Positions 45,916 through 64,000 of a stretch of 64,000 nucleotides of DNA are shown in pieces. Made by a program: the position numbers and the translations under genes. The stretch covers positions 1 through 64,000 of the forward strand of contig JAUXRN010000007.1 of assembly GCA_030681835.1 (NCBI GenBank). Direction: 5' to 3'. The notes below the pieces were generated by a model that was given only the letters and a program-made list of their open reading frames with translations, was not told where the DNA came from and did no database searches. The stretch comes from Actinomycetota bacterium. Its GTDB lineage: Bacteria; Actinomycetota; Actinomycetes; S36-B12. The first letter of the stretch is position 1. Every line of letters starts with the position of its first letter.

Positions 45916-46280
45916 TAGAAGGACCAGTCCTCGGCCAGGACGGCCTCCTGCATCGCCATCCGCAGGGGCTCCATGCGGAGCAGGGCCGGCGGCGAGGCCA
46001 GCAGGTCCGGCATCGCCTGAACCATGCGGGCAAACCCTCCCGCCGCCCGGTGCGCCTGCTCGGCTTCATCGTCCCGGAACATCTCGTACAGCCACACGAG
46101 CGCATCGTCATCGGGGTCGACCGAGACGACGAAGAGCTCCGTTCCCGGCTCCTCGGCAAGGCCGTCGGCGTAGGTGTTCAGCACGTCGAGCAACGCGGCC
46201 CGGCGCCCTGCCTGGCAGGTCAGTCGGACCAACAGTGCGTGCCGTCCGGGCAGGAGCGCCTGGACCGGACCCTCGCTCAT
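45915..46280 (-). CDS. ABM-like protein, coupled to fcl
   Basis: 121 residues: ALLVRLTCQAGRRAALLDVLNTYADGLAEEPGTELFVVSVDPDDDALVWLYEMFRDDEAEQAHRAAGGFARMVQAMPDLLA is an ABM domain. The C-terminus LRMEPLRMAMQEAVLAEDWSF is an extra helix. ATG 46280 overlaps the fcl stop (ATGA). The track ORF from 46439 is antisense extension. Together with the next gene it forms a pair of ABM proteins after a sugar-nucleotide gene, which is an odd combination. Confidence 0.8.
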   Translation of the reverse strand: MSEGPVQALLPGRHALLVRLTCQAGRRAALLDVLNTYADGLAEEPGTELFVVSVDPDDDALVWLYEMFRDDEAEQAHRAAGGFARMVQAMPDLLASPPALLRMEPLRMAMQEAVLAEDWSF

Positions 46281-47242
46281 GCGACCCCGCCCGCCGCGTG
46301 GGCAACGTTCGCGACATACCAGTCGTACGTCGAGGCAACCCCGTCGCGCAGCTTGATGGTGGGGTACCAGCCGAGCTCGTTGATGCGCGTCGTGTCGAGC
46401 AGTTTGCGGGGCATGCCGTCGGGCTTGCTTGTGTCCCATTCGATGGCGCCCTCGAAGCCGACAACCGACGCCACGGTCTCCGCCAGTTCACGAATCGGCA
46501 TGTCGTCGCCGAGTCCCACGTTGATGGTCTGGGCGGAGTCGTAGACCTGCATGAGCATCAGGGCAGCCTGGGCGAGGTCGTCGACGTGCAGGAACTCCCG
46601 CCGGGGGGCTCCCGTGCCCCAGACCGTGACGCTGGGCGCACCGCTGGCCTTCGCCTCGTGGAAGCGTCGGATGAACGCCGGGAGGACGTGCGAGCTCTGC
46701 AGGTCGAAGTTGTCGTTCGGCCCGTACAGGTTGGTGGGCATCGCCGAGATCCAGTGCCGCCCGTACTGGGTGCGGTGCGCCTCGATGTAGAAGATCCCCG
46801 AGATCTTGGCCATCGCGTAGGCCTGGTTGGTGGGCTCGAGGGGACCGGTCATGAGCGAGGTCTCGCGGATCGGCTGGGTGGCGTGCCGGGGGTAGATGCA
46901 TGACGAGCCGAGGAACAGCAGCCGGTCGACATCGGCGGCATGCGCCGCGTCCATCACGTTGGTCTGGATGAGCAGGTTGTCCTTGAGGAAGTCCACTGGG
47001 TACGTCGAATTCGCCATGATCCCCCCGACCCGGGCGGCGGCATCGATGATCACGTCGGGCTTGGCCCCGACGATCGCGTCGTGGGTCGCCTCTCGGTCGC
47101 GCAGGTCCAGTTCGCTGGAGCGCCAGCCGATGACCTCGCCCACGCCCGCGGACTCAAGTGCCCGCACGATCGCCGAGCCGACCAGGCCGTTGTGCCCCGC
47201 GACGTAGACCTTGACGTCGTTCCACGGGAACTCGGCTCGCAT
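46277..47242 (-). CDS. fcl: GDP-L-fucose synthase
   Basis: 321 residues of the extended SDR family. VYVAGHNGLVGSAIVRALE is the NADP-binding loop, AARVGGIMANSTYPVDFLKDNLLIQTNVMDAAH and FLGSSCIYPRHATQPIRETSLMTGPLEPTNQAYAMAKISGI carry Ser-Tyr-Lys, and TNLYGPNDNFDLQSSHVLPAFIRRFHEAK matches Fcl closely. It converts GDP-4-keto-6-deoxymannose to GDP-fucose. The preceding enzyme Gmd is not in the window. ATG 47251 is an alternative start three codons earlier. It is divergent from the CoA-transferase family gene. Confidence 0.93.
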   Translation of the reverse strand: MRAEFPWNDVKVYVAGHNGLVGSAIVRALESAGVGEVIGWRSSELDLRDREATHDAIVGAKPDVIIDAAARVGGIMANSTYPVDFLKDNLLIQTNVMDAAHAADVDRLLFLGSSCIYPRHATQPIRETSLMTGPLEPTNQAYAMAKISGIFYIEAHRTQYGRHWISAMPTNLYGPNDNFDLQSSHVLPAFIRRFHEAKASGAPSVTVWGTGAPRREFLHVDDLAQAALMLMQVYDSAQTINVGLGDDMPIRELAETVASVVGFEGAIEWDTSKPDGMPRKLLDTTRINELGWYPTIKLRDGVASTYDWYVANVAHAAGGVA

Positions 47243-47314
47243 GGCGGCCATTGTGGCATAGCGGGGCTCGTGCAACCCCGGCCTCGACGCCCGCCTGATG
47301 ACAGGATGGCGGCC

Positions 47315-50220: not shown

Positions 50221-51459
50221 ATGCGCCGTGCCCTCATGTCCGTCGCCGTCGTGTCCGCGCTTGCCGTGGCCGCCCTGACGGCCGGGCAGGCCACCGCCGC
50301 GCCGTCCGCCCCGGAGCCCGTCCAGCCGATGCAGTTCGGCATGCACGTACCGGACATCGCCCAGGGCACGGACCCGTCGATCGCGTATGGGTCGATCCGG
50401 CTGTGGGACTCAGGCGTCGCGTGGGGCCAGGTGGAGCAGGCCAACAACAAGTACTGGTGGAACGGGCTTGACGCCGCGATCTCGAACGCGAACTCCCAGC
50501 AGGTCCGAACCCTGTACGTCCTTGGTTCGACGCCCAAGTGGGCGGCCAGCAACACCAAGCAGGGCACCTATCCCAACAAGGGCGCCGCGTCCATGCCGTC
50601 GATGAAGGAGTGGAAGGCCTGGGTGACCGCAGTCGTGCAGCGGTATGCCGGATCGATCGAGGCCTACCAGATCTGGAACGAGGCGAACCTCACCACCTTC
50701 TGGCAGGGCACCCCCAAGCAGATGGCCCAACTGACCTCCGAGGCCTACAAGATCATCCGCAGGTACGACCCCACGGCCAAGGTCATCTCGGCCAGCAGTA
50801 CGGTGCGGCTGCAGAGCGCCTACAAGAAGTTCTTCCCGGCGTACCTCAAGGAACTGAAGAAGCTGAAGTGGCCGGTCGACGCCATCGCGGTCCACCTGTA
50901 CCCGCCGAGCAAGGGCACGCCCGCGACCCGTGCTGGCTACATCACCCAGGTCCAGGCCGACATGAGGAAGGCCGGCGTCCCGGCAAGCAGGGAACTCTGG
51001 GACACCGAGATCAACTACGGCATCAAGGGCCCCGGCAGCGGCAATCCCGACAAGGACATCGAGGGTCCCACGGCGGCCGCGTGGGTCGCGCAGACCTACC
51101 TCGACAACATCCGCCTCGGGGTGGCTCGCTCCTACTGGTACTTCTGGGACCGGTCGGTCGACCTGGTCGGCATCCAGATGTTCGACGGAACACTGGGCTC
51201 GGTGGGCTTCCAGTCCGTCTATACCTGGCTCAACGGCAAGTTCTACACGTGCGCCAGCGGCGACGTGAACACCTGCCAGCTGGGCGACAACGCCGATCCG
51301 CAGGTGGTGGCCTGGGCCTCAACGGGCTCGGGTACCTTCGTGGTGCCGGCAGGGGTCACCCAGACCTGCACGGCACTCAACCAGTGCACGGCCGTCGTGC
51401 CGGGCTCGAACGTGACGATTGGAAGCATGCCGCAATGGTTCGGAATCGCACGAAGCTGA
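50221..51459 (+). CDS. Secreted clan GH-A-like glycoside hydrolase, paralog 1
   Basis: 412 residues. The signal peptide is RRALMSVAVVSALAVAALTAGQATAA. A TIM-barrel-like core has GSIRLWDSGVAWGQVE, YQIWNEANLTTFWQGTPKQMAQLT (acid/base Glu of the WNE motif), DAIAVHLYPP and LWDTEINYGIKGP (nucleophile Glu), then ARSYWYFWDRSVDLVGIQMF. This order fits GH39-like enzymes such as PslG of Pseudomonas (recalled). A C-terminal domain of about 80 residues has paired Cys (YTCASGDVNTCQ, QTCTALNQCT). It shares the fold and motif order with the next gene. Confidence 0.8.
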   Translation: MRRALMSVAVVSALAVAALTAGQATAAPSAPEPVQPMQFGMHVPDIAQGTDPSIAYGSIRLWDSGVAWGQVEQANNKYWWNGLDAAISNANSQQVRTLYVLGSTPKWAASNTKQGTYPNKGAASMPSMKEWKAWVTAVVQRYAGSIEAYQIWNEANLTTFWQGTPKQMAQLTSEAYKIIRRYDPTAKVISASSTVRLQSAYKKFFPAYLKELKKLKWPVDAIAVHLYPPSKGTPATRAGYITQVQADMRKAGVPASRELWDTEINYGIKGPGSGNPDKDIEGPTAAAWVAQTYLDNIRLGVARSYWYFWDRSVDLVGIQMFDGTLGSVGFQSVYTWLNGKFYTCASGDVNTCQLGDNADPQVVAWASTGSGTFVVPAGVTQTCTALNQCTAVVPGSNVTIGSMPQWFGIARS

Positions 51460-52733
51460 CGTCCGCCGCGATCGGCCTAGCCGGCATCGCGTTCCTGGCC
51501 ACGGCCTGCTCGTCGGGTTCGCCGGAGCCTGAATCACCGACCGCGACCGCGGCAGCGACCGAGGCGGTCCCGCCGGCCAATGCCGTCCCAGCCACGCTCG
51601 TGGGGATGCACATCGAGGGCGCCGAGGCGGGCGCCTGGGCCTCGGCTCCCTTCGGCGCCCTGCGCCTGTGGGACAACGGCACCGCCTGGTCGCAGATCGA
51701 GCTGGAGCCCGGCGTGTACAAGTGGGACAACCTCGAGGGCATCCTGGAGAACGCCGAGTCCAAGGGGATGACCGACATCCTCATGGTGCTCGGCACGACC
51801 CCAGAGTGGAACGCCAAGGTCGTCAACCCTGACGACTACCCCCAGCCGGGAGCCGCCAGCGCGCCCAAGGACCTCGATGCGTGGGACTCCTGGGTGACCG
51901 AGGTTGCCACGCGATACAAGGGCCGGATCACCTCGTACCAGATCTGGAACGAGGCGAACCTCAAGAACTTCTGGGGTGGCACGCCCGAGGAGATGGCCGA
52001 GCTGACCAAACGGGCGTACGACATCATCAAGGCGATCGATCCGGCGGCCCTCGTCGTGTCGGCCTCCCCGTCGACGCGGCTGACCGCCTCCTTCGACCGC
52101 TTCTTCCCGGCCTACCTGAAGGCCCTGGCCGACAAGGGATGGCCGATCGACGTCGTGGGCTTCCACACCTACCCCGGGGCCGACGGTGACCCGGTCGCCC
52201 GGGGGGCTCTCATCGAGGCGACCAAGACGGCGCTGACCGCGGCCGGGGCACCCGAGTTGCCCCTCTGGGACACCGAGCTCAACTATGGGCTGGCCGGTCC
52301 GGGCCCGGACCTCGCCAAGCAGGACATCACCGGGGTCGACGCCGCCGGCTGGATCGTGCGCACCTACATCGACGACCTCCGCTACGGGGTCGCCCGCTCC
52401 TACTGGTACATCTGGACGCAGAAGCCGTACGCCCTGCTCGGCATCCAGGCCTACCCGGGGTCGGACGGCGAGCAGGGCTTCTTCGCCTTGGACACCTGGG
52501 TGGTCGGGGCCGGGTTCGACGGGTGCACGGAGGCCGAAGGGGTGGTGGAGTGCACCTTCACCCGTGACGCGACTCCATCGGTGATCGTCTGGGCAGAGAG
52601 CGGATCGGCCACCTACACGGCCCCCGACAACGCCGCCCTGGCCTGCGACCCCCTCGCCAACTGCCAGCGGGTCGAACCGGGATCGCAGATCGCCCTGACC
52701 GACGTCCCGGTGCGGATCTTCGCCCAGGCGTAG
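51435..52733 (+). CDS. Clan GH-A-like glycoside hydrolase, paralog 2 (lipoprotein)
   Basis: 432 residues. A lipoprotein signal RTKLTSAAIGLAGIAFLATACSSGS places a Cys at about residue 23, so it is anchored on the membrane. The barrel repeats paralog 1: GALRLWDNGTAWSQIE, YQIWNEANLKNFWGGTPEEMAELT, DVVGFHTYPG, LWDTELNYGLAGPG, ARSYWYIWTQKPYALLGIQAYPG. Both Glu residues are kept. GGAAG at 51421 precedes ATG 51435, which overlaps paralog 1 by 25 bp. The track ORF from 50538 is a shadow extension. Duplication followed by a change of export route is inferred. Confidence 0.8.
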   Translation: MVRNRTKLTSAAIGLAGIAFLATACSSGSPEPESPTATAAATEAVPPANAVPATLVGMHIEGAEAGAWASAPFGALRLWDNGTAWSQIELEPGVYKWDNLEGILENAESKGMTDILMVLGTTPEWNAKVVNPDDYPQPGAASAPKDLDAWDSWVTEVATRYKGRITSYQIWNEANLKNFWGGTPEEMAELTKRAYDIIKAIDPAALVVSASPSTRLTASFDRFFPAYLKALADKGWPIDVVGFHTYPGADGDPVARGALIEATKTALTAAGAPELPLWDTELNYGLAGPGPDLAKQDITGVDAAGWIVRTYIDDLRYGVARSYWYIWTQKPYALLGIQAYPGSDGEQGFFALDTWVVGAGFDGCTEAEGVVECTFTRDATPSVIVWAESGSATYTAPDNAALACDPLANCQRVEPGSQIALTDVPVRIFAQA

Positions 52734-52791: not shown

Positions 52792-52797
52792 TATCGT
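52792..52797 (+). promoter_or_regulatory. Putative -10 element of the glycosylphosphotransferase gene
   Basis: TATCGT lies 29 bp before ATG 52827, with GGGAGG as ribosome site. GATAAC/GTTATC inverted repeats and a GGCAG-GCC-CTGCC hairpin (52748-52760) lie between it and the previous stop, which may terminate the upstream pair. Confidence 0.4.
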
Positions 52798-52826
52798 GAG
52801 GGCGGTCGTGAGCACCGGGAGGTGGC

Positions 52827-54344
52827 ATGTCGCTGGAAGAGCGCGAGGGCCGCGGCCTGCCGGACATGTCCGACCAGTCGACGATTCCGCTCAGCACACC
52901 TGCGCGCATCGGCTGGGCCGAGGCTCACTCGCACCGTGATCGCCCGCACCTTCGGCGCGACCCGCTTCGCGTATACGCCACCCGCGCCATCCTTCTGGAT
53001 GGCTGCGCGGTCCTCGTGGCGGCCATCGTCGGCTTCATCCTGCGATGGGCCATTCCCTACTCGGTGGAACTGAACGACCCCACCTACGTGTCGCTGGTAG
53101 GCGTTGTCGTGGTGTCGTGGATATCCGTCCTCGTGCTGCGCGGTGCCTACGACACCAGGGTGCTCGGGGTCGGCTCGGAGGAGTTCAAGAGGGTCGTCTC
53201 CGCCTCCGCGACGGTGTTCGCGGCCGTCGCCGTCGTCGCCTTCGCCCTGAAGCTCGACCTGTCCCGCGGCTTCGTCCTCATCACGTTCGCCGTGGGGATG
53301 CTTCTTCTCCTGTGCGTCCGATGGGGCCTGCGATCGTGGCTGCGGCACGAGCGTAGGTACGGGCACTTCCTGCATCGGACGGTCGTCATCGGCGCCGAGC
53401 CAATGCGCGGCGAGATCGTCGACATGCTCGACAGGGACCCGGTCGCGGGCTTCACGGTCGTCGACGTCATCGAGGAACCGGACATCCACGAGGACGAGGC
53501 CATCCTGGATTCGTGGCTCGACGAGGTCATGGCGCGGATCTCGCTGCAGGACGCGGACACCGTCGCGGTCGCGGGTTCGCCGACCATGGGGCAGGACGTC
53601 GTGCAGCGACTGGCCTGGCGGCTGGAGGGACCGCGCGTCGACCTCCTGGTGGCCCCGACGATCGGTGACGTCGCCGGGCCGCGCGTGACCATGCGCATGG
53701 CCGCCGACCTCCCGCTCCTGCACCTCGACGAGCCGCACCTCACCGGCCCCAAGCGCGCCATCAAGCGGGCGCTCGACATCGGCGCGGGCGTCCTGCTGCT
53801 CGTGCTCTTCCTCCCCTTCATGGTGATCGCCGCCATCGGCGTGTGGGTCAGCAGCCGCGGGCCCGTGTTCTATGTCCAGGAGCGGGTCGGCCGTGGCGGC
53901 CAGATCATCTCGGTGCCCAAGTTCCGCACGATGTACACCGGCGCCGACAAGCTCCGCGACGAGGTGATCGGCCAACCCGACGGGGCGATCCTCGACCGGT
54001 ACCGAGGCGACCCCCGGATCACCCCCTTCGGGCGGATCCTGCGCCGGTGGTCGATCGACGAGACGCCGCAGGTGCTCAACGTCATCATCGGCTCGATGTC
54101 GCTCGTCGGCCCGCGGCCGGTGCTCGTCGACGAGATGCCGCTGCTCGGCGATGCCGATCATCGCCGGCACCTCACCAAGCCAGGGCTCACGGGGCTGTGG
54201 CAGGTCTCCGGCCGCAAGTCGGTCGACTGGGAGGAGCGCATGCGCCTCGATCTGGACTACGTCGAGCACTGGTCGCCTGCCCTGGACCTGGTGATCGTCG
54301 CGAAGACGATCAAGGTGGTCCTCGTGGGTAACGGCGCCTACTAG
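52827..54344 (+). CDS. Exopolysaccharide polyprenyl glycosylphosphotransferase (initiating sugar transferase)
   Basis: 505 residues. Four N-terminal membrane helices and a CoA-binding-like Rossmann region (TVVIGAEPMRGEIVDML) precede a fifth helix (DIGAGVLLLVLFLPFMVIAAIGVWVSSRGPVFYVQERVG). The catalytic domain shows KFRTMYTGADKLRDEV, GRILRRWSIDETPQVLNVIIGSMSLVGPRPVLVDEM and KPGLTGLWQVSGRKSVDWEERMRLDLDYVEHWS, all typical of WbaP/WcaJ enzymes. It transfers a sugar phosphate from UDP-sugar to undecaprenyl phosphate and starts repeat-unit synthesis. Confidence 0.93.
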   Translation: MSLEEREGRGLPDMSDQSTIPLSTPARIGWAEAHSHRDRPHLRRDPLRVYATRAILLDGCAVLVAAIVGFILRWAIPYSVELNDPTYVSLVGVVVVSWISVLVLRGAYDTRVLGVGSEEFKRVVSASATVFAAVAVVAFALKLDLSRGFVLITFAVGMLLLLCVRWGLRSWLRHERRYGHFLHRTVVIGAEPMRGEIVDMLDRDPVAGFTVVDVIEEPDIHEDEAILDSWLDEVMARISLQDADTVAVAGSPTMGQDVVQRLAWRLEGPRVDLLVAPTIGDVAGPRVTMRMAADLPLLHLDEPHLTGPKRAIKRALDIGAGVLLLVLFLPFMVIAAIGVWVSSRGPVFYVQERVGRGGQIISVPKFRTMYTGADKLRDEVIGQPDGAILDRYRGDPRITPFGRILRRWSIDETPQVLNVIIGSMSLVGPRPVLVDEMPLLGDADHRRHLTKPGLTGLWQVSGRKSVDWEERMRLDLDYVEHWSPALDLVIVAKTIKVVLVGNGAY

Positions 54345-54382
54345 GGGCTGTTTCGGTCGCGGGTCCGCCGGCTGTGGATATC

Positions 54383-54388
54383 TATACT
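54383..54388 (+). promoter_or_regulatory. -10 element of a leaderless DUF4012 transcript
   Basis: TATACT, close to the optimum, ends 6 nt before GTG 54395 and lies 38 bp after the previous stop. No ribosome site is present. Confidence 0.6.
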
Positions 54389-54394
54389 CCCTGA

Positions 54395-56335
54395 GTGACC
54401 CTGAGCCGCACGCGCCTCGTGCTCGGGGGGCTGGCGGTGGCACTTGTCGGCGGGTTCGTCTTCTGGCTGCAGGCGGGCGTCCTCTACTCGGTCGGCACGC
54501 TGGCGTGGGGCGGCTGGGGTCTGCAGTCGCACTTGAGCGGCGCGGCCGAAACGGTCCTGTCCGGCGACTACGAGATCGCCGGCTCGGAGTACGCCTTGGC
54601 GGTCGCCTCGTCCGACGAGCTGGCCCGATCGGTCGGGACGACCCAGCTGGACCTCATCGGGCTGCTGCCCGGGCTCGACACGGCGGTGGGCAACTGGCGT
54701 CTTGCAGCGTCGGCGGCAGACGACATCACGTCGGCGACCGGCGGTCTGCTGGCCCTCTATGGGGACCTGTCTGGGAAGGGTGGCGGTCCCAAGATCTTCA
54801 GCGACGGGGCCATCGACCTGGCCCGGCTGAACGACCTTCCGCAGCGGGTGGGGCGGGTCGTGGCCAGCCTGGCCAGTGCCGAGCGTGACCTCGACGCGGT
54901 GCGGGCCGAGAGTCAGCCGGCCGCGCTCCTGGACCGGATCCGCGACCGGGCCCTTGCCGAGATGGCGCCTCTTCAGGAGGGGATCGGGGCCCTCGAGCGC
55001 ATCGCTCCTGTCCTGCCCGACGCGCTCGGGGCCAACGGCGTGCGCCGCTATCTCGTCGCCATCGGCAACCAGGCCGAGATGCGCGCGTCCGGCGGGGCCC
55101 CGCTCACCCTCGTCCTGGTGGAGTTCAACGAGGGGCGCATCTCGATCCCGATCAAGGGGCAGACCAGCACCCAGCTGTTCCCGCCGCTGAACGCGCCAGT
55201 CTCGTGGTGGGGGCCGGCGTCGAACCCCTTCTTCCCGGGCAATCCGCGCAACGCCCCGTTCGTGGTCACGAACACCCATCCGAACCTGCTCTTCTCGGCG
55301 AAGGAGATGGCGGGCGCGTGGGAGGGCGGCCAGTACCCGCCGGTCGACGGAGTGATCACGGTGGACCTGACCGCGATCGCCGCGGTGCTGGATGCGACGG
55401 GCCCGATCGAGTCGTCCGCATACGGCACGGTCGACGGGTCCCAGCTCGGCCAGATCCTCCTGATCGATGCCTACGCCGACTTCGGGCAGGAGGAGTCAGC
55501 GGAGCGCCAGCAGGCGAACCAGCAGTTGCTGGACGACCTGCTTGCCAGGCTGCTGTCCGGTGACGACCTGGTGTCGGCGGCCCAGGCGATGGCCAGCACT
55601 GCACCCGGACGCCACGTCCAGCTGTGGATGCGCAACGCGGAGCTCGAGGCCTTGGCCATCGAGAGCGGCGCGGCCGGGGTCGTCGACGATCCCGACACCG
55701 GCGACTGGTCGGCGCTCTACACGCAGAACGGCAACCAGAGCAAGGTTGACGTCTTCCAGCAGCGCAACGTCCTGGTGACCGCGCAGGTGGCCGCTGACGG
55801 GTCCGCTCGGGTCACCCAGCAGCTCACCGTCACGAACGCCACGCCTCCTGACCGGCCCGCGGAAGGCAGTCTCGGGCGAATCGGCTACGAGACGATGTGG
55901 CTCAAGAACGCCTACCTCATGTACGTGCCGGATGCCGCGTTGGACTACACGGCCGCCTACCCCTCCGACTTCGCGGTCCGGCCATTCCAGGGCCATCCGC
56001 AGCTAGGCCGAGGCTGGGTCGAGGACGGCTTCGGGCACCGCCTGATCAGGATCGTGGGCTGGACCGAACCCGGCGGCCAGAGCGCAGTGTCGGTCTCCTA
56101 TCGCCTGCCTGCCGGGACCTTCTCCGGGCCGACCTCGTCGGAACTGGAGTACACCCTGCAAGCGGAGCCGCAGGCGCTGTGGGTGAACTCCGTCATCACC
56201 GTGCAAGTCACGGCGCCGGACGGATGGCTGCCGATCGAGGAGCCGGGCATGAAGGTTCAAGGCTCCACGGCCACCGTGAGCGCCGTGCAGTCGGCACCGG
56301 TCAACGCGGCCATCACGTTCGAGCGCACCCCGTGA
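54395..56335 (+). CDS. DUF4012 family membrane-anchored protein
   Basis: 646 residues. An N-terminal anchor (RLVLGGLAVALVGGFVFWLQAGVLYS), an extracytoplasmic helical part (to about 200), then the DUF4012 core: RRYLVAIGNQAEMRASGGAPLTLVLVEFNEGRISI, SWWGPASNPFFPGNPRNAPFVVTNTHPNLLFSAKEMAGAWE and PVDGVITVDLTAIAAVLDATGPI. DUF4012 proteins often occur in exopolysaccharide clusters of Actinobacteria and Chloroflexi; their function is not established. The stop overlaps the next gene (GTGA). Confidence 0.85.
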   Translation: MTLSRTRLVLGGLAVALVGGFVFWLQAGVLYSVGTLAWGGWGLQSHLSGAAETVLSGDYEIAGSEYALAVASSDELARSVGTTQLDLIGLLPGLDTAVGNWRLAASAADDITSATGGLLALYGDLSGKGGGPKIFSDGAIDLARLNDLPQRVGRVVASLASAERDLDAVRAESQPAALLDRIRDRALAEMAPLQEGIGALERIAPVLPDALGANGVRRYLVAIGNQAEMRASGGAPLTLVLVEFNEGRISIPIKGQTSTQLFPPLNAPVSWWGPASNPFFPGNPRNAPFVVTNTHPNLLFSAKEMAGAWEGGQYPPVDGVITVDLTAIAAVLDATGPIESSAYGTVDGSQLGQILLIDAYADFGQEESAERQQANQQLLDDLLARLLSGDDLVSAAQAMASTAPGRHVQLWMRNAELEALAIESGAAGVVDDPDTGDWSALYTQNGNQSKVDVFQQRNVLVTAQVAADGSARVTQQLTVTNATPPDRPAEGSLGRIGYETMWLKNAYLMYVPDAALDYTAAYPSDFAVRPFQGHPQLGRGWVEDGFGHRLIRIVGWTEPGGQSAVSVSYRLPAGTFSGPTSSELEYTLQAEPQALWVNSVITVQVTAPDGWLPIEEPGMKVQGSTATVSAVQSAPVNAAITFERTP

Positions 56336-58278
56336 CGCGTCCCCTGGGCATCATGCTCGCGGCCGTGGTGGCCAGCGTGGCACTGCTGTGGCTGGTCCCG
56401 CCGGTGGGTTTCGCGGCCGCCGTCCTCGTGCTCATTGTCGTCCCGCCGTGGGGTCGCAGCCTCGCCGAGCGAGCGGTCATCAGCGGGGTCGTCGTCGTCG
56501 GGGTCGTGGCGGCTCTCGTCCCGCGGGCGGGGCCGACCCCTGTCACGGCGGAGTCAGCCAAGATGCTGCTCACCCTCGTCGTCATCGGGTCGGTCGCGCT
56601 GCGGTTGATGCCGGCCCTGCGGAACTCGCCGATTCCTCGCCCGACACTGCCCGACGCTCTGGTGCTCGCCCTCGGGGTTGCCTCGGGCTGGTGGCTGGCC
56701 TCCGCCTACGTAGGACGCGCCGCCGCCGACATCGTGAGCGGCCTGTACTTCAGCGGGTGGGACAACCAGGCGCATTTCACCACCTTCGCCAATACCTACG
56801 AGGTGGGGAGCACGACGTGGCCGACGGCTGGCGGCGGGATCGCCTGGAACCAGTGGTACCCGTCCTTGCACACCACGGTCTGGGCTCTGGCCGAGCTGGC
56901 CTCCAACGCGGGCGGCAGCCTGCTGTCGCGCGCCGACCTGCTGTGGCCCTACGTGCTGTGGAGCGCAACGAGTTTCGCCCTGTGCCTTGCCGCCCTGGCG
57001 TGGGTGGCCGGCGACCTCGCCGCGCGGTTCGCCAAGCCGGGTAGTGCCTGGGCACGCCCACTCGCCATCGGGGCGTTCGCGGTCTTCGGCCTCCTCGGCA
57101 GCCCGGCCTTCCTGTTCAACGCCGGCTTCACCAACTTCATGATGGGCGTGACGGTCGTCGTCGTCGTGTCCTACCTGAGCGCGCGCAACCTCGGCTCGGC
57201 GCGGCGACTGGGCTGGTTCCTCGTGCCGCTCGGGGCATGGGCGGTGGTCGGCCTGTGGACCCCTCTTGCGCTCGGCCTGGTGCCGGCCGGCGTCGTCGTC
57301 CTGGTGGCGCTGCTGCGCCATCGACGTTGGGCAGGACTCGGGTGGCTGGGGCTGACGCTGCTCCTTGCCGCATTCCTCGTGACGACCCAGACGGCGGCGA
57401 TCCTGGGCGTCGAGCCCGGCCAGTCCTCCGGGGACTTCACCAACGAGCTCGGTGCCGTGAGCACGGGCATGGTCCCGTTCAACGTCATGGCCGCATTGCT
57501 GGCAGCGGTCGTGATCGCGATCACGGTCGTGGTGCTTGCCCGGCAGCGGCGCTGGCCGATGGCCGCCGCGATCGGGGGGCCGTCCCTGGGGTCGGCGCTG
57601 ATCGCGCTGGTCTTCGTACCCGCGGCCGATGCGGCGGGCATCGGGCGCCTCGAGTCGTACTACGTGCTCAAGGGACTGGACGGCCTGCTGGTCTGCGCCG
57701 CTCCCGTGCTCGCTGCTGCCGCTGCCGCCGGCCTGTGCCGCGCACTCGACGGGCTCGACCGTCCCGGGCGCTGGCTGGCGGCTGCGGCTGCGGGCCTGGT
57801 CCTGGTGGCCCTCTTCGGCTTTGCCGGACCGCTGGTGCCGATGTCGCCGGGCACCCCGGTGGCGGCTGGGGTGCAGGCGGGGGCGGACCGGACCCGGGGT
57901 GCCGGGGATCTCGTGGGCGTAGCGATCGTCGATGCCGCTGCCGCCGCCCGGCCCTATCCCGAGTTCACGACGGTGTTGTGGGACGGCGCTGGCCAGTTGC
58001 CCAACCTGTGGGTGTCGTCGTTGCACGGCGTGCCGTCCAAGGCGGACAACCTCTTCTACTCTGGCATGCCGCCGTTCCCGTACGACACGGTGAAGACCCT
58101 CGGCTACTCGGACTTGAGCCTGAGCCTGGATCCGACCTTGAGGCTGGCGCTGCTCTGGTTCCGGCCGTCCTCCGGTGAGGCCCTCGACACGTATGCGGCC
58201 AATCGTGAGGACGGACGTGCTGTCAGCGTCCGCGTGCCCATGGGCGCCAACGCGATGTGCCCAGAATGTGCCCCGTGA
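56332..58278 (+). CDS. Large polytopic membrane protein, possible GT-C glycosyltransferase or polymerase
   Basis: 648 residues with about twelve to fourteen membrane helices. A periplasmic loop after TM6 or so, YFSGWDNQAHFTTFANTYEVGSTTWPTAGGGIAWNQWYPSLHTTVWALAELASNAGG, has acidic and aromatic residues like the first loop of GT-C transferases (WDNQAH could be the metal/donor site). The C-terminus is a soluble part of about 130 residues. I do not recognise a family. GTG 56332 overlaps the DUF4012 stop and the 3-prime end overlaps the VCBS gene, so the three are co-translated. Confidence 0.7.
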   Translation: MTRPLGIMLAAVVASVALLWLVPPVGFAAAVLVLIVVPPWGRSLAERAVISGVVVVGVVAALVPRAGPTPVTAESAKMLLTLVVIGSVALRLMPALRNSPIPRPTLPDALVLALGVASGWWLASAYVGRAAADIVSGLYFSGWDNQAHFTTFANTYEVGSTTWPTAGGGIAWNQWYPSLHTTVWALAELASNAGGSLLSRADLLWPYVLWSATSFALCLAALAWVAGDLAARFAKPGSAWARPLAIGAFAVFGLLGSPAFLFNAGFTNFMMGVTVVVVVSYLSARNLGSARRLGWFLVPLGAWAVVGLWTPLALGLVPAGVVVLVALLRHRRWAGLGWLGLTLLLAAFLVTTQTAAILGVEPGQSSGDFTNELGAVSTGMVPFNVMAALLAAVVIAITVVVLARQRRWPMAAAIGGPSLGSALIALVFVPAADAAGIGRLESYYVLKGLDGLLVCAAPVLAAAAAAGLCRALDGLDRPGRWLAAAAAGLVLVALFGFAGPLVPMSPGTPVAAGVQAGADRTRGAGDLVGVAIVDAAAAARPYPEFTTVLWDGAGQLPNLWVSSLHGVPSKADNLFYSGMPPFPYDTVKTLGYSDLSLSLDPTLRLALLWFRPSSGEALDTYAANREDGRAVSVRVPMGANAMCPECAP

Positions 58279-60548
58279 GACGAGTGCCTGTCGTGAGCCG
58301 TTCGGCCCGCCGAGGCGCCGCTCTCGCCTCCGTCCTCGCCCTGACGGCAACGATGCTTCCGGTCCTCTCCGTTCAGGCGGTCGAACGCGCGCCGCGCCTG
58401 CCCTCGCTCCCGACGGTCCCCGAATCCGGCAAGATCCCGGCCAAGCCGCGCTCGGTGCCCGCCGCCGGATCGGCAGCGACGGGTCGGTGGACCACGTGGT
58501 CGGGCGGCGTCGGCCGCAACGCCGGAACCGTCACCTCGATGGTGCCCGGTGGCGGGGTGGCCCTGCTCGCCGACTGGAATGGCGACGGCCTGGCCACGCC
58601 GGGCCGCTATGACAGTGGTCAATGGTTCATCACCAACGCCGCCGCGGGACAGCCCGGCTGGGAGGCCAAGACGTCGTTCGGGGGCAGCGCGGGGGATATC
58701 CCCGTGGTGGCCCAGCTTCGCCGGCGCGGGCCGGCCAGGATCGGCATCTTCCGGGCGGGCACGTGGCTGTGGCAGGGGCCGGATGGCAAGGTGGCCAGGA
58801 CCGACCAGTTCGGGGCGGTGGGCGACCTGCCGATCGTGGGGGACTGGGACGGCGACGGCCGGGACGATCTGGGCGTGGTGCGGGGGACGACCTGGATCCT
58901 GCGGATCACCGGCGTGCGCGGGCGCCCCGGCTTTGTCGGGAAGTCACTCGAAGTGACGGTCGACCGGTCGATACGCGCGGCTGTCGTGCAGTTCCCGTTC
59001 GGCGTGGCGGGTGATGTGCCCGTTGTCGGGGACTGGGACGGCGACGGCCGAGATGATCCGGGGGTGGTGCGGGCCCGCCGCGAATGGATCCTCAGCGAGG
59101 GCCTGAAGCACGTGCGGCGCACGTCCTCCGAATTGCATCAACTGGTCGACGGAGAGGTCCCCCTCGTCGGGTCGCAGGTCACGGCGGTGTCGGGCTGCCC
59201 GACCGCTACCCGCAAGGGGGAGCGCTACGGCAGGGCAGCCGCGAAGAAGGTGGAGCGGGCGCTCACGCCGAAGGGCACGCTCGGGATCGCTGGGAACGCC
59301 GAGATCCTCGCCACCGTCCAGGACAGCCTGCGCTACGTGGTGACGAACGACCTCACCGCCCGGCTGCGCTCGCGCGTCGACCGTCCGTACTACGACCCGC
59401 TGAGCACGCACCGGACCCAGGAAGAATCCGTGCGCCGGTCGGCCAACGCCGCGCTGGCGGCCGCGATCATGCTGACGACGACGTCGTGGAGCGACGAGAA
59501 CGGCATCTCCCGTCAGCAGTTGCTCGACTACGCACGCTGGCATATCCGCTCGTTGGCCTGCGAGCACGGGGCTATCACGCCGGGCGGCTGGGGCAATGGC
59601 TGGCAGTCGGCGCTCTGGGCGGTCACGGCCGGCCAGGCCGGCTGGCTGCTGTGGCCGGACCTCTCGAAGCAGGAGCGGGCCTACGTCGCGGCCATGGTCG
59701 TCAGCGAGGCCGACTACGCCGCGGCCCGCGGCCCGCGGTACTTCCGCAACCGGCTCGGGCAGGAGCTGACCCCGGGCGACTCGCAATCGGACGAGGTGTC
59801 CTGGGACCTCATGGCGCCCGCCCTCGCCCTCGCAATGATGCCGCAGCACGACCACGCCGCGCGCTGGCGCAATTCGCTCATCGCGATGGCGATCTCCGCG
59901 TTCGCGCGGCCGGATGACCTGCACCGGCCGCAGGTGTACAACGGGGTTCGGCTGGACATCCGGCTTCCGGGGACAAACGCGAACGAGGACGGCACGGTCA
60001 CGAACCACGGCATCGTGAATCCCGACTACATCCAGAACGTGCAGCACCTGTGGTGGGCGGCCAGCCTCCTGCGGTCCGGTGGGCAGCCGGTGCCCGAGGC
60101 CCTGTTCCTGAACGCGGACATCGTGTACCGGGCGCTGGCCGTGGTCGAGTTCCCGTCGCCGCCCTATGCCGCGCCCGGAGGGACGGTCTACCAGCCGCTG
60201 GGCCAGATCTACTACCCGATGGGCGTGAGCTGGGGGGTGCGGCGTCCGGCCACGTTCGTGGGGGTCGACGCCTTCGCGAATGCCTACGCCGCGGCCGATG
60301 TCCGCGCCGCGGAGTTCCTGGCCGCGCATGCGGCAGATACCCGGGCCCTGCAGCTGCGCTGGAGCGACGGGCACATCTACGCGGACGGGCCGGCGGAGGA
60401 CTCCTACCGGCTAGGCCGCGAGGAGTACGCGCTCCAGCAGCTGGCGTTGGCGTGGTGGGCCGGCGCGCTGAAGGACGGGTTGCGCATGCGGGTGGATACC
60501 GCCGCCTACCGGGGGATCAGCCTCGGAAACGGGACGCCAATTCCGTGA
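58275..60548 (+). CDS. Exported VCBS/FG-GAP-repeat protein with helical C-terminal domain
   Basis: 757 residues. A signal peptide (RSARRGAALASVLALTATMLPVLSVQAV) precedes three or four FG-GAP-type repeats, with Ca-binding loops ADWNGDGLAT (about 97), GDWDGDGRDDLG (about 189) and GDWDGDGRDDPG (about 252). A region of about 420 residues follows (SANAALAAAIMLTTTSWSDENG, GAITPGGWGNGWQSALWAVTAGQAGWLLWP, EEYALQQLALAWWAGALKDG) that looks like an alpha/alpha toroid, as in polysaccharide lyases or GH76/88-type enzymes; this is inference. GTG 58275 overlaps the previous stop (GTGA). It overlaps rmlC by 32 bp tail-to-tail. Confidence 0.75.
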   Translation: MRRVPVVSRSARRGAALASVLALTATMLPVLSVQAVERAPRLPSLPTVPESGKIPAKPRSVPAAGSAATGRWTTWSGGVGRNAGTVTSMVPGGGVALLADWNGDGLATPGRYDSGQWFITNAAAGQPGWEAKTSFGGSAGDIPVVAQLRRRGPARIGIFRAGTWLWQGPDGKVARTDQFGAVGDLPIVGDWDGDGRDDLGVVRGTTWILRITGVRGRPGFVGKSLEVTVDRSIRAAVVQFPFGVAGDVPVVGDWDGDGRDDPGVVRARREWILSEGLKHVRRTSSELHQLVDGEVPLVGSQVTAVSGCPTATRKGERYGRAAAKKVERALTPKGTLGIAGNAEILATVQDSLRYVVTNDLTARLRSRVDRPYYDPLSTHRTQEESVRRSANAALAAAIMLTTTSWSDENGISRQQLLDYARWHIRSLACEHGAITPGGWGNGWQSALWAVTAGQAGWLLWPDLSKQERAYVAAMVVSEADYAAARGPRYFRNRLGQELTPGDSQSDEVSWDLMAPALALAMMPQHDHAARWRNSLIAMAISAFARPDDLHRPQVYNGVRLDIRLPGTNANEDGTVTNHGIVNPDYIQNVQHLWWAASLLRSGGQPVPEALFLNADIVYRALAVVEFPSPPYAAPGGTVYQPLGQIYYPMGVSWGVRRPATFVGVDAFANAYAAADVRAAEFLAAHAADTRALQLRWSDGHIYADGPAEDSYRLGREEYALQQLALAWWAGALKDGLRMRVDTAAYRGISLGNGTPIP

Positions 60549-61125
60549 CGTGCGCCCGGCAGTCGGCGTAGTAGGGGAGGAGTCCGTCGGCCCGCGCTGC
60601 TGCGAACGTGGGTGCTGAGTCGTCCTTCGGCGACAAGGTGAGCTCGCCAGCCGGCCATGGCAGGCCGAGGTCGGGATCGAGTGGATGGATTCCGTGTTCC
60701 CGCGCGGGCGCGTAGGGCTCTGAGCAGAGGTAGCCGACGGTGGCCGACTCGGACATTGCGCAGAAGGCATGGCCGAGTCCCTCGGCGATGTAGAGGGCGG
60801 ATCGCCCCGCATCGTCGAGTTCCACGGCGTCGTACGCGCCGAAGGTTGGCGACCCGACCCTGATGTCGACGACGACGTCGACAATGCGGCCCTGCAGGCA
60901 CTGGACGTACTTGGCCTGGCCCGGGGGCACATCGGCGAAGTGGATGCCCCGCACCGTTCCGCGACGAGAGACCGAGATGTTCATCTGCTGGACCGACAGC
61001 GCATGGCCGACGGCATCATTGAAGGCCGACGCCGCGAAGGACTCCAGGAAGACGCCGCGCTCATCGGGTCGCAGGACCGGCTCGAACAGCCACACGCCTT
61101 CGATCGACAGTGGCTGGACCCGCAC
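60517..61125 (-). CDS. rmlC: dTDP-4-dehydrorhamnose 3,5-epimerase family protein
   Basis: 202 residues of the RmlC cupin. GVWLFEPVLRPDERGVFLESF, the catalytic SVSRRGTVRGIHF with His, PPGQAKYVQCLQGRIVDVVVDIRVGSPTFGAYDAVELDD, and YIAEGLGHAFCAMSESATVGYLCSEPY are the family motifs. rmlA, rmlB and rmlD are not in the window. A TAACCT hexamer ends 6 nt before GTG 61125, so the mRNA is probably leaderless. It is divergent from the GT4 gene. Confidence 0.92.
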   Translation of the reverse strand: MRVQPLSIEGVWLFEPVLRPDERGVFLESFAASAFNDAVGHALSVQQMNISVSRRGTVRGIHFADVPPGQAKYVQCLQGRIVDVVVDIRVGSPTFGAYDAVELDDAGRSALYIAEGLGHAFCAMSESATVGYLCSEPYAPAREHGIHPLDPDLGLPWPAGELTLSPKDDSAPTFAAARADGLLPYYADCRAHVTELASRFRG

Positions 61126-61131
61126 GTTGGG

Positions 61132-61137
61132 AGGTTA
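61132..61137 (-). promoter_or_regulatory. -10 element of a leaderless rmlC transcript
   Basis: TAACCT on the minus strand is separated from GTG 61125 by 6 nt. Confidence 0.5.
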
Positions 61138-61170
61138 TCAGTGGCGCGGAGGGGTCCCGGCTGCTCGCAG

Positions 61171-61176
61171 TACGGT
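61171..61176 (+). promoter_or_regulatory. -10 element of a leaderless glycosyltransferase transcript
   Basis: TACGGT ends 6 nt before ATG 61183. Its partner promoter for rmlC lies 33 bp away in the opposite direction. Confidence 0.5.
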
Positions 61177-61182
61177 GGTCGG

Positions 61183-62292
61183 ATGAAGGTCGCCTTGATG
61201 GGGACGCGCGGGGTCCCCGCGCGGTACGGCGGCTTCGAGACCGCCGTCGAGGAGATCGGATCCCGACTGGCCGCGCGCGGCCACGCGGTCACTGTCTACT
61301 GCCGCAACCCCGGCCAACGGATGCACGAGTACCGCGGGATGACGCTCGTCAACGCCCCTGCCGTCCGGCACCGAGTGGCCGAGACCCTGTCGCACACCGC
61401 TGCGAGCACCGTGCACGCCGTCGTGCGCGATCGACCCGACGCGGCCATCGTCATGAACGCCGGCAATGCCCCTTTCCTGAAGCCGTTGCGGCTGGCAGGG
61501 ATACCTGCGGCCGTGCATCTCGACGGGCTGGAGTCGAAGCGGGAGAAGTGGCGCGGCGCGGGGGCGGCCTACTACCGCTGGGCCGAGCGCGCTGCCGTGG
61601 CGTGGGGGCAGGAGGTGATCGCCGACGCACAGGCGATCGCCGATCACGTGTCGCGGGACTACGGACGTGAATGCGTGGTCATCCCGTATGGCGCGGCGGT
61701 CATCCATCCTGGTTCGGGCCGACTCGCAGCGCTCGGGGTCGACCCCGGCGGCTATCACCTCCTCGTGGCCAGGTTCGAGCCAGAGAACCACGTGCTCGAT
61801 GCGGTTAAGGCGTACGGAGCAAGCCGGGAGGTCCGGCCACTCGTCGTCGTCGGCAGCGCTCCCTACAGCGACTCGTACGTCGATGCGGTGCACGCCGCCG
61901 CCGAGGGCGACGGACGGATCAGGTTGGTCGGCAGTCTCTACGACCAGGACCTTCTCGACGAGTTGTACGGGCACGCCGTGGCGTACATCCACGGTCACTC
62001 GGTCGGCGGCACCAACCCGTCCTTGTTGCGGGCCATGGGGGCGGGGGCGCCCGTGCTGGCCTTCGACGTCGAGTTCAATCGCGAGGTGACCGACGGACGT
62101 GCCTACTTCTGGCGCGACGCCGAGATGCTGACGTCGGTTTTCGACGACATCGCAACAGGTTCCGAGGGGACCACCTTGGCGTCCATGTCGACCGATGGCC
62201 GCGCACGCATAGCCGGGCACTACCAGTGGGATGCCGTGACCGACCAGTACGAGAACTTGCTGCACCGACTCGCGGCGTCGCGGCGGCGGTGA
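61183..62292 (+). CDS. Glycosyltransferase family 4, DUF1972 type
   Basis: 369 residues, GT-B fold. MKVALMGTRGVPARYGGFETAVEEIGSRLAARGHAVTVYCR is the DUF1972 start found in rhamnosyltransferase-like enzymes. HLDGLESKREKWRGAGAAYYRWAERAAV, LVARFEPENHVLDAVKAY (donor-binding) and YIHGHSVGGTNPSLLRAMGAGAPVLAFDVEFNREV (E-x7-E-like region) follow. Donor sugar unknown; rhamnose would fit the neighbouring rmlC. It precedes a GT2 gene by 7 bp. Confidence 0.9.
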   Translation: MKVALMGTRGVPARYGGFETAVEEIGSRLAARGHAVTVYCRNPGQRMHEYRGMTLVNAPAVRHRVAETLSHTAASTVHAVVRDRPDAAIVMNAGNAPFLKPLRLAGIPAAVHLDGLESKREKWRGAGAAYYRWAERAAVAWGQEVIADAQAIADHVSRDYGRECVVIPYGAAVIHPGSGRLAALGVDPGGYHLLVARFEPENHVLDAVKAYGASREVRPLVVVGSAPYSDSYVDAVHAAAEGDGRIRLVGSLYDQDLLDELYGHAVAYIHGHSVGGTNPSLLRAMGAGAPVLAFDVEFNREVTDGRAYFWRDAEMLTSVFDDIATGSEGTTLASMSTDGRARIAGHYQWDAVTDQYENLLHRLAASRRR

Positions 62293-62299
62293 CCGCACG

Positions 62300-63121
62300 A
62301 TGACCCGGATCGCGGCCGCGATCGTCACCCACAACTCCGCTGCGTGGCTGCCGGACACCCTGGCGAGCGTTCTGACCCAGTCGCGGCCGCCGGACCTCGT
62401 CGTCGTGGTGGATGACGCCTCGACCGACGGTACCGAGGCGATCCTGCGCGACCATGGCATCGACGCCCTTCCGGCACGCTCGCGGGATCCGGACCGGGTC
62501 ACGCGGATTGCCGCCAACTTCCGGCAGGCGGTCGACGCGGCGCGCGCCTGCGACCTGATCATTCTCGGGGACCACGACGACGTCTGGCACCCCTCGAGGC
62601 TCGCGGACCAGGCGAGCACGATGGAAGCCAGTCCGCAGGCCTTGCTCCTGGCATCCGACGGGCGACTCGTCGATGCCGATGGCTTGACGATGGGCGGGAC
62701 CCTGCGCAGCACGTTCCCGATTCCGGACGGCTGGGCCGGCCTTGCCCCGGCGGGACGCATGCGAGAGGTGCTGCGCCATGCCGTGGCCACGGGTGGCGCC
62801 AGCGCGATACGGCCTGCAGCCTTCCCGACGCTCGACATCCCGCGAGGATGGCTGCATGACCGCTGGTGGAGCCTGGTGGCCGCCGCCCGGTCGGGGCTGC
62901 TGCTCGACGAGGCAATCGTGATCGACTACCGAATCCAGCCTGGCCAGCAGGTCGGCCTGGACCGGGCCGCGCAGGCGCATGGCCCGATCGGCCGGCTGGG
63001 GGCGCTGGCCAGCGAGGCCGGGCGGTCGTGGGGCAAGTCGCGAGACGTCGTGCGTCGCTTGCGGCCGATGGCCTTGGACGAGGCGATCGCGCGGGAGATC
63101 CGCCTGCGCAACGTGCTCTGA
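62300..63121 (+). CDS. Glycosyltransferase family 2
   Basis: 273 residues, GT-A fold. IAAAIVTHNSAAWLPDTLASVLTQSRPPDLVVVVDDASTDGTEAIL is the nucleotide-binding start and CDLIILGDHDDVWHPSRLADQ holds the DxD-like metal site (DHDD). The C-terminal acceptor part is short. ATG 62300 lacks a clear Shine-Dalgarno and follows the GT4 stop by 7 bp, so the pair is probably co-translated. Confidence 0.9.
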   Translation: MTRIAAAIVTHNSAAWLPDTLASVLTQSRPPDLVVVVDDASTDGTEAILRDHGIDALPARSRDPDRVTRIAANFRQAVDAARACDLIILGDHDDVWHPSRLADQASTMEASPQALLLASDGRLVDADGLTMGGTLRSTFPIPDGWAGLAPAGRMREVLRHAVATGGASAIRPAAFPTLDIPRGWLHDRWWSLVAAARSGLLLDEAIVIDYRIQPGQQVGLDRAAQAHGPIGRLGALASEAGRSWGKSRDVVRRLRPMALDEAIAREIRLRNVL

Positions 63122-63124
63122 GGG

Positions 63125-64000
63125 CTACCGCAGCCAGTCGAGGTGCGTCACGCACACATGCGCGACGGGAGACCCGATGCCCAGGTACGGCACGGTCGTG
63201 CACTCAGGCTCCGACGGCTGGGCCCACGGCGGCAGGCTGGCCAGGAACGCGGAGATCTGCTCGCGGTCGGGGGCATACAGGGCAATGGCGCTGGGCCGAG
63301 TCTCCTCGAGGGTGGCGGATTCGACCGGGTCGAGGGTGGGACCGATTCCGATCAGGTTGTACGCCCCCCACAACTGCATGCCGGCCAGGCCGGCCGTCAG
63401 GCGACCCGGGTCCGTCCAGATGCCGATCGAGTCGTCGGGTCCGGTCCGGGCCAGCACCCACTCCTCGGCCGCGATGCGCGAGCCCATGAGCAACTCCGCG
63501 TCGAAGTCGACGTAGGCGGCGCGCAGCGGGTACTGGCCGTAGATGCCCAGCAGGCCACGGCCGTTCTGCAGCAACTGGCCGCCGATGGCAGCGATGGCGA
63601 CCGCGAGGACGAGGACCGCGGGTGCCGACCGTCGATCCGTCAAGGATGCGGCGGCGGCAAACGCGAGCACGATGGCCAGCGCGACCAGCAGGCCCTGCCC
63701 TGTCGACAGGTCCCGGTCCCAGCGTCCCGCCCACGCCGTCAGGCAGATCCCTGCTCCGGCCAGTCCCCATCCGACCAGGCCAGGACGTCGCTGCCCGGCC
63801 AGCGCCGCGGTTGCCAACGCGGCAGCCACGATCGCGCCGGGCCACAGTTTCGCCACGTACGTGGGCGATTCCAACCACGGACCGGGCACGAGTTGGATGA
63901 ATGCGAACGTGAAGGCGACACTGGCCGAGCCCACGGCCAAGGCGGCGATGGAGGAGGTGAAGGCAGGTTTCCCTCGGGTGGCGACGACGGTGATCAGAGC
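63125..64000 (-). CDS. Polytopic membrane protein, truncated at the window edge
   Basis: The frame is open from base 64000, so the N-terminus is missing; the track start at 63940 is internal. At least five hydrophobic helices are seen (LWPGAIVAAALATAALAG, GLVGWGLAGAGICLTAWAG, GLLVALAIVLAFAAAASL, APAVLVLAVAIAAIGGQLL), then a soluble C-terminal domain of about 150 residues (VDFDAELLMGSRIAAEEWVLARTGPDDSIGIWTDPGRLTAGLAG). This layout is like GT39/GT-C-type mannosyltransferases whose C-terminus faces outside. The family is not certain. It converges on the GT2 gene with 3 bp between. Confidence 0.65.
   Translation of the reverse strand, partial: ALITVVATRGKPAFTSSIAALAVGSASVAFTFAFIQLVPGPWLESPTYVAKLWPGAIVAAALATAALAGQRRPGLVGWGLAGAGICLTAWAGRWDRDLSTGQGLLVALAIVLAFAAAASLTDRRSAPAVLVLAVAIAAIGGQLLQNGRGLLGIYGQYPLRAAYVDFDAELLMGSRIAAEEWVLARTGPDDSIGIWTDPGRLTAGLAGMQLWGAYNLIGIGPTLDPVESATLEETRPSAIALYAPDREQISAFLASLPPWAQPSEPECTTVPYLGIGSPVAHVCVTHLDWLR

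Follow-up and report, generated by a model that had tools for sequence, protein, structure and literature searches.

Do three overlapping genes behind a priming glycosyltransferase form a polysaccharide assembly machine of their own, or do they belong to a larger export locus? The question arises from a stretch of 64,000 nucleotides (the window) of an Actinomycetota bacterium (GCA_030681835.1, contig JAUXRN010000007.1). The source contig (C228) has 65,555 bases, 1,555 of them past the window, and belongs to a draft genome of 3.27 Mb. The three genes (the trio) encode a DUF4012 protein, a 648-amino-acid (648-aa) membrane protein and a 757-aa exported protein. They are conserved as a unit within one actinobacterial family and lie in an ABC-exporter locus for a glycopolymer. 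Most likely, the trio finishes a sugar polymer outside the cell.

The gene order is two GH39-like genes, a WbaP/WcaJ-type transferase gene, the trio, an RmlC-like gene on the minus strand, genes for a GT4 and a GT2 glycosyltransferase (GT), and a gene for a 576-aa membrane protein, again on the minus strand (Table 1). An initial annotation of the window had listed the transferase and the genes after it. The DUF4012 domain (PF13196), the 14 hydrophobic segments of the 648-aa protein, the FG-GAP/VCBS-type repeats of the exported 757-aa protein and the GTGA overlaps at 56332 and 58275 that tie the trio together were all seen again. The transferase is present as well (382.8 bits with TIGR03025, above the cut-off of 295.6), and its gene starts at 52827, 35 bases later than the annotated 52792. 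A 50-bp gap, with no overlap, separates it from the DUF4012 gene. The four genes after the trio are also there, the RmlC-like gene and the last one being on the opposite strand.

Conservation of the trio and the exporter beyond the window

The relatives examined come from one actinobacterial family (Candidatus Nanopelagicales, to go by record titles), freshwater Actinobacteria known mainly from assembled genomes. Homologs of the 648-aa protein were found in 43 of its 70 sampled genomes, with near-full-length matches at 40–97% identity. Of the 32 testable family loci, 31 had the DUF4012 gene directly upstream of the 648-aa gene, and the remaining one has only 402 bases upstream. The gene for the 757-aa exported protein immediately followed in 27 of 29. 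Several genera share the order GH39-GH39-transferase-DUF4012-membrane-exported-rmlC (minus)-GT4-GT2. Conservation as a unit had been set beforehand as a test of the initial proposal; within this family, the trio is real and conserved as a unit.

Among 346 sampled Actinomycetota genomes outside the order, the 648-aa protein had no match, and the exported protein had matches to its propeller half only. Distant relatives of the 648-aa protein in another family do not have the other two trio genes nearby. Public records that bear the locus under the labels Bifidobacterium breve or Rubrivirga group by content with the freshwater family, and these labels look wrong.

The initial annotation had framed the trio as an undescribed assembly module, and this framing rested on missing Wzx, Wzy and ABC genes. 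The window indeed lacks an ABC exporter, because its edge cuts the locus. A look past 64 kb, which the annotation had proposed, revealed the exporter on an abutting contig (C189) of the same genome, with genes for Wzm (PF01061, E = 1e-25) and for Wzt (PF00005, E = 4e-22) carrying a Wzt_C domain. When both contigs are placed on a sister contig, with 94–95% identity on either side, the end of C228 and the start of C189 overlap by 16 bp. C189 almost certainly continues C228, the join coming from synteny and not from assembly. In this synteny placement, Wzm starts near window-equivalent 68.1 kb, about 4 kb past 64 kb.

The sister genome (G002), whose copy of the 648-aa protein is 97% identical, carries the same locus beyond the window-equivalent genes. 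There it continues with a GT4-type gene, a Big_3_5 protein, Wzm (PF01061), Wzt with Wzt_C (PF14524) and further GTs, followed downstream by an RmlA-like nucleotidyltransferase, two GDP-mannose-dehydratase-type enzymes and a pair of GT2 and DUF2304 genes. Wzm and Wzt are in the same order in sister genomes. The trio thus belongs to an ordinary Wzm/Wzt export locus for a surface glycopolymer and does not by itself form an undescribed machine for assembly. The WbaP/WcaJ-type enzyme would prime its polymer.

Predicted properties of the three proteins

No Pfam or NCBIfam entry fitted the 648-aa protein, and scans of its homologs at E up to 10 also named no family. Profiles of the three trio proteins, run against PDB sequences, found nothing relevant. 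Profile comparison (hhalign) of the 648-aa family with DUF6541 gave a score of 58.6 (E = 4e-6, probability 87%), alignable over 586 columns, with reversed and Wzy controls at 24–32. The alignment was in register between GWDNQAHF (WDNQAH) and a DDGxxHG stretch, and between YPSLH and YPLxLH. With PMT_2, an established GT-C family, the score was moderate (48.4, probability 64%). In the same comparison, DUF6541 scored 55.4 and the family of the 576-aa protein 51.7, and controls scored 22–30. DUF6541 is itself probably GT-C-like, as the PMT_2 comparison supports. In the 648-aa family, W143-D144 are invariant and H148 and H180 near-invariant; they lie in a non-hydrophobic stretch (128–206) between hydrophobic segments, a candidate for the large outer loop with a conserved acidic residue that GT-C enzymes have near the N-terminus. 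The profiles place the 576-aa protein, too, with candidate GT-C-type glycosyltransferases. A polytopic membrane protein encoded downstream of the exporter (L066, 18834–20000), without a Pfam match, may be a third protein of this type.

DUF4012 was found in 79 of the 247 sampled Actinomycetota genomes, and the papers found that mention it give it no role beyond that of an "auxiliary protein" in an exopolysaccharide (EPS) cluster. The AlphaFold2 model, made with 27 close homologs (mean pLDDT 72, with parts of the core below 50), has one N-terminal transmembrane (TM) helix, a long helical stalk, an alpha/beta core and a C-terminal beta region. A profile of the DUF4012 core, built from 74 sequences, matched that of the LytR-CpsA-Psr (LCP) wall-polymer ligases (51 sequences) with a score of 40.6 and a probability of 77% (single-comparison E = 2e-5); none of the unrelated families or reversed profiles exceeded 20. 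When the LCP alignment was lengthened, the score was 39.2 (probability 68%). With small alignments the comparison was not significant, and the score rose only with deeper ones. The 77% is the best of several versions of alignment and trimming, and the E-values, each for one comparison, are not corrected for their number. The match spans the VDGVI-DP-aL-LL-tGpV stretch and the helices after it. E228, R230, G233-G234, D318 and D324 are strongly conserved in diverse DUF4012 sequences, and E228-x-R230 may, by eye, correspond to D-x-R of LCP. These profiles suggest that DUF4012 is probably a remote relative of LCP with a changed active site, and not a member of that family: PF03816 finds neither of the two DUF4012 proteins of this genome.

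Some members of the order have weak PF03816 matches, which were considered as intermediates between DUF4012 and LCP and rejected; they fit the LCP profile and not the DUF4012 profile. The best Foldseek matches of the DUF4012 model, to ribophorin I and M1 peptidases, seem from the fold types to concern the C-terminal beta region, and no function was drawn from them.

The second DUF4012 gene is on contig C147 (L004, 1960–6738), beside genes for an OmpA-domain protein and an ABC-type protein, in a cluster that also has a small priming transferase and a Wzy_C protein. DUF4012 thus seems to accompany more than one type of assembly within one cell, which argues against a role tied to Wzm/Wzt alone. 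A general DUF4012-priming transferase neighborhood is not claimed, as it was seen in 2 of 29 short-flank loci, where the short flanks limit the test.

The 757-aa exported protein was modeled (pLDDT 79, pTM 0.83) with a beta-propeller at about 60–300 and, after it, an all-helical C-terminal domain. In Foldseek, the propeller matched fungal GlcNAc-binding lectins (probability 0.97–1.0) and other propellers; those that belong to large complexes of unrelated kinds were disregarded as generic hits. The whole protein gave weak matches, with low TM-scores, to the toroid enzymes GH81, GH15, PL15, PL8 and GH9. Comparison of the C-terminus with lyase and hydrolase folds, as the initial annotation had suggested, thus yielded a predicted toroid-like, all-helical domain but no lyase or hydrolase family that could be named. 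Among the invariant residues are those around GTNANEDG, and N577-H578, N582-P-D-Y585, W439-G440, E478 and D511. Toroid lyases often use Asn, His and Tyr. The C-terminal domain is predicted to be a helical toroid of an unnamed, lineage-restricted family.

Two tandem genes for GH39-like exported proteins (50221–52733) are kept upstream of the priming transferase in related loci. Their GH39 assignment is from weak Pfam matches.

Proposed pathway and alternative roles

In the reading that we prefer, and to which we give roughly even chances, an ABC exporter carries a surface or cell-wall glycopolymer out of the cell, where GT-C enzymes lengthen or decorate it, an LCP-like DUF4012 protein handles or attaches it, and the exported protein processes it together with the GH39-like pair. 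From gene content, synteny, the exporter and the GT-C and LCP profile similarities, we infer the biochemical role of each trio member and the order of the steps. The WbaP/WcaJ-type transferase would load the first sugar phosphate onto polyprenyl phosphate. Cytoplasmic GT4 and GT2 enzymes would build the chain from sugars made by the RmlA-, RmlC- and Gmd-like enzymes of the locus, and Wzm/Wzt would export the polymer. Outside, the two GT-C-type membrane enzymes (648 aa and 576 aa) would add sugars from polyprenyl-phosphate donors, probably supplied by the downstream GT2 and DUF2304 pair. DUF4012, held by its one TM helix, most likely takes charge of the lipid-linked chain once this has been exported to the outer face, and perhaps transfers it to the wall. 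Binding or trimming of the polymer would fall to the propeller-toroid protein and both GH39-like proteins.

A wider proposal is more tentative, and we lean against it: that DUF4012 is a widespread, unrecognized LCP-fold family that has a different active site and serves, at the outer face, to transfer lipid-linked glycans or to hold them, working here with a lineage-specific GT-C enzyme and with the first described member of a new exported propeller-toroid family for glycan processing. Several results weigh against the LCP and processing steps of the preferred pathway. The LCP link, at a probability of 77%, or 68% with the longer alignment, does not reach the usual level of significance. No LCP is among the top 50 Foldseek matches of the DUF4012 model, whose core is partly below pLDDT 50. 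The LCP arginine motifs SIPRD, YVRxR and RxxRQ are not among the conserved DUF4012 columns, and a separate ordinary LCP gene in the genome (the only PF03816 match, on contig C41) could do any ligation. For the toroid domain, Pfam, NCBIfam (E up to 10) and PDB sequence searches gave no enzyme family.

The initial annotation saw the trio as a dedicated unit for polymerization, tailoring or surface retention of one glycopolymer. Tailoring or surface attachment is still the best reading, and polymerization is not. For the latter, the 648-aa protein would have to be a Wzy-type polymerase, which its polytopic nature, its large loops and the adjoining priming transferase could suggest. However, there was no Pfam Wzy match among 13 homologs, and the profile score with Wzy_C proteins (PF04932) was 31.6 over 23 columns, at the level of controls and well below those with DUF6541 and PMT_2. 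Moreover, the locus has an ABC exporter, and ABC-exporter polysaccharide loci normally go without Wzy. We therefore rejected the Wzy identity, which now appears very improbable, and conclude from the profiles that the 648-aa protein is a likely GT-C-type glycosyltransferase. The propeller-toroid protein could be a non-enzymatic surface lectin that holds the polymer at the cell, with the toroid as a structural scaffold. The similarity of its propeller to GlcNAc-binding lectins fits this role, as does a toroid without sequence match to any enzyme family. We consider it unlikely, however: the many invariant polar and aromatic toroid residues (GTNANEDG, NH, NPDY) suggest a conserved pocket, the weak fold matches are mostly to glycan-active toroids, and two GH39-like proteins are encoded beside it.

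The remaining alternative concerns DUF4012. The polymer could be a loosely held capsule or EPS, and DUF4012 a non-catalytic assembly factor (a co-polymerase, length control or exporter partner in a Wzz-like role) acting through its TM helix and stalk. The long N-terminal helices of the model are in line with this, as is the lack of conservation of the LCP arginine motifs. So is the EPS cluster of Bifidobacterium longum 105-A, where DUF4012 adjoins the priming transferase and lies between it and wzz; in a cpsD mutant, the DUF4012 transcript was undetectable and the capsule was lost, a result that does not separate the two genes (PMC5412050). However, B. longum has wzz in addition to DUF4012, hence DUF4012 is not simply its Wzz. 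The conserved E228, R230, G233-G234, D318 and D324 look more like a ligand site than a stalk, and the profile match with LCP stands clear of every control. An assembly factor is, in our judgment, unlikely, and we keep an LCP-like handling of the exported chain as the preferred role.

What is possibly new here is two unnamed families (that of the GT-C-like 648-aa protein and that of the toroid domain), which match no entry in the libraries searched, together with the possible LCP kinship of DUF4012. If true, the link to wall-polymer ligases would give DUF4012 a function that can be tested throughout the Actinobacteria. The trio is also a marker of a surface-polymer pathway in these freshwater bacteria.

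The features of the locus are collected in Table 1. The RmlC-like protein scored 147.7 bits with TIGR01221, slightly under the cut-off of 155.8. The epimerase/dehydratase upstream is possibly a sugar-nucleotide enzyme of the locus. Two genes at 47306–49423 adjoin the sugar locus: an acetyl-CoA hydrolase/transferase-type gene, syntenic in many relatives though unrelated in function, and a formamidopyrimidine-DNA-glycosylase-like gene, named by eye. Beyond the window, the Big_3_5 (bacterial Ig-like) protein (L065, 18633–19865, minus) is apparently exported, lies between the GT4-type gene and wzm, and is kept in sister loci; it is possibly a surface partner of the polymer. A 1206-aa protein (L066, 11135–14755) is conserved in three loci and has, by eye, a methyltransferase-type N-terminus followed by glycosyltransferase regions.

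Table 1. Features of the glycopolymer locus in window coordinates.
Feature	Position	Strand	Length and evidence
NAD-dependent epimerase/dehydratase, GDP-fucose-synthase-like	46277..47251	-	324 aa; PF01370 E 4e-62; syntenic in relatives
Exported GH39-like protein 1	50221..51459	+	412 aa, Sec-type signal peptide; PF01229 E 2.5e-8
Exported GH39-like protein 2	51435..52733	+	432 aa, putative lipoprotein, lipobox LATAC; PF01229 E 1.7e-8
WbaP/WcaJ-type polyprenyl glycosylphosphotransferase	52827..54344	+	505 aa; PF02397 E 3e-58; TIGR03025
DUF4012 protein	54395..56335	+	646 aa; PF13196 E 1e-21
GT-C-type membrane glycosyltransferase candidate	56332..58278	+	648 aa; hhalign to DUF6541 and PMT_2 with controls
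Exported beta-propeller and helical-toroid protein (predicted)	58275..60548	+	757 aa; FG-GAP repeats, model, Foldseek
RmlC-like dTDP-4-dehydrorhamnose 3,5-epimerase	60517..61125	-	202 aa; PF00908 E 5e-58
GT4 glycosyltransferase with DUF1972	61183..62292	+	369 aa; PF09314, PF13579, PF13692
GT2 glycosyltransferase	62300..63121	+	273 aa; PF00535 E 8e-17
Second GT-C-like membrane protein	63125..64855 (contig; window edge 64000)	-	576 aa; hhalign vs PMT_2 51.7

Comparison with known systems

The B. longum 105-A EPS cluster shares with this locus a DUF4012 domain next to the priming transferase. In contrast, it has wzz, a polymerase and a flippase instead of Wzm/Wzt, and no 648-aa or propeller-toroid partner is listed there. 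The hydrolase PslG and the lyase AlgL of EPS operons (PMC9075953, PMC5099689) are likewise exported, glycan-active-looking proteins within a synthesis locus; here, however, the toroid domain is in no named family and the GH39-like proteins have weak Pfam matches.

DUF4012 resembles LCP ligases in the weak in-register core profile match, the single TM helix, the outer-face position and the glycan-cluster context. It differs from them in that the LCP arginine motifs are not conserved in it and in having an extra helical stalk and a C-terminal beta region, and LCP is absent from its top structural matches.

GT-C enzymes with lipid-linked donors modify O antigens outside the membrane, including ABC-exported ones (PMC11127046). 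With this extracytoplasmic three-component glycosylation the locus shares GT-C-type enzymes, a GT2 that likely charges polyprenyl phosphate, and the small membrane protein DUF2304, whose role here is putative. The difference is the 648-aa family, which has no library entry and is always found with DUF4012 here.

Like other Wzm/Wzt systems, the locus combines a polyprenyl-linked priming transferase, cytoplasmic GTs, Wzm, and Wzt with Wzt_C. In mycobacteria, galactan synthesis starts with WecA, and Wzm-Wzt exports the galactan, on which arabinosyltransferases and ligases then act outside (PMC10951656). The present locus differs from the galactan system in its WbaP/WcaJ-type start and in its extra DUF4012, propeller-toroid and GH39-like exported proteins. 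The proposed steps of export followed by action at the outer face would nevertheless resemble mycobacterial galactan export followed by outer-face arabinosylation and ligation.

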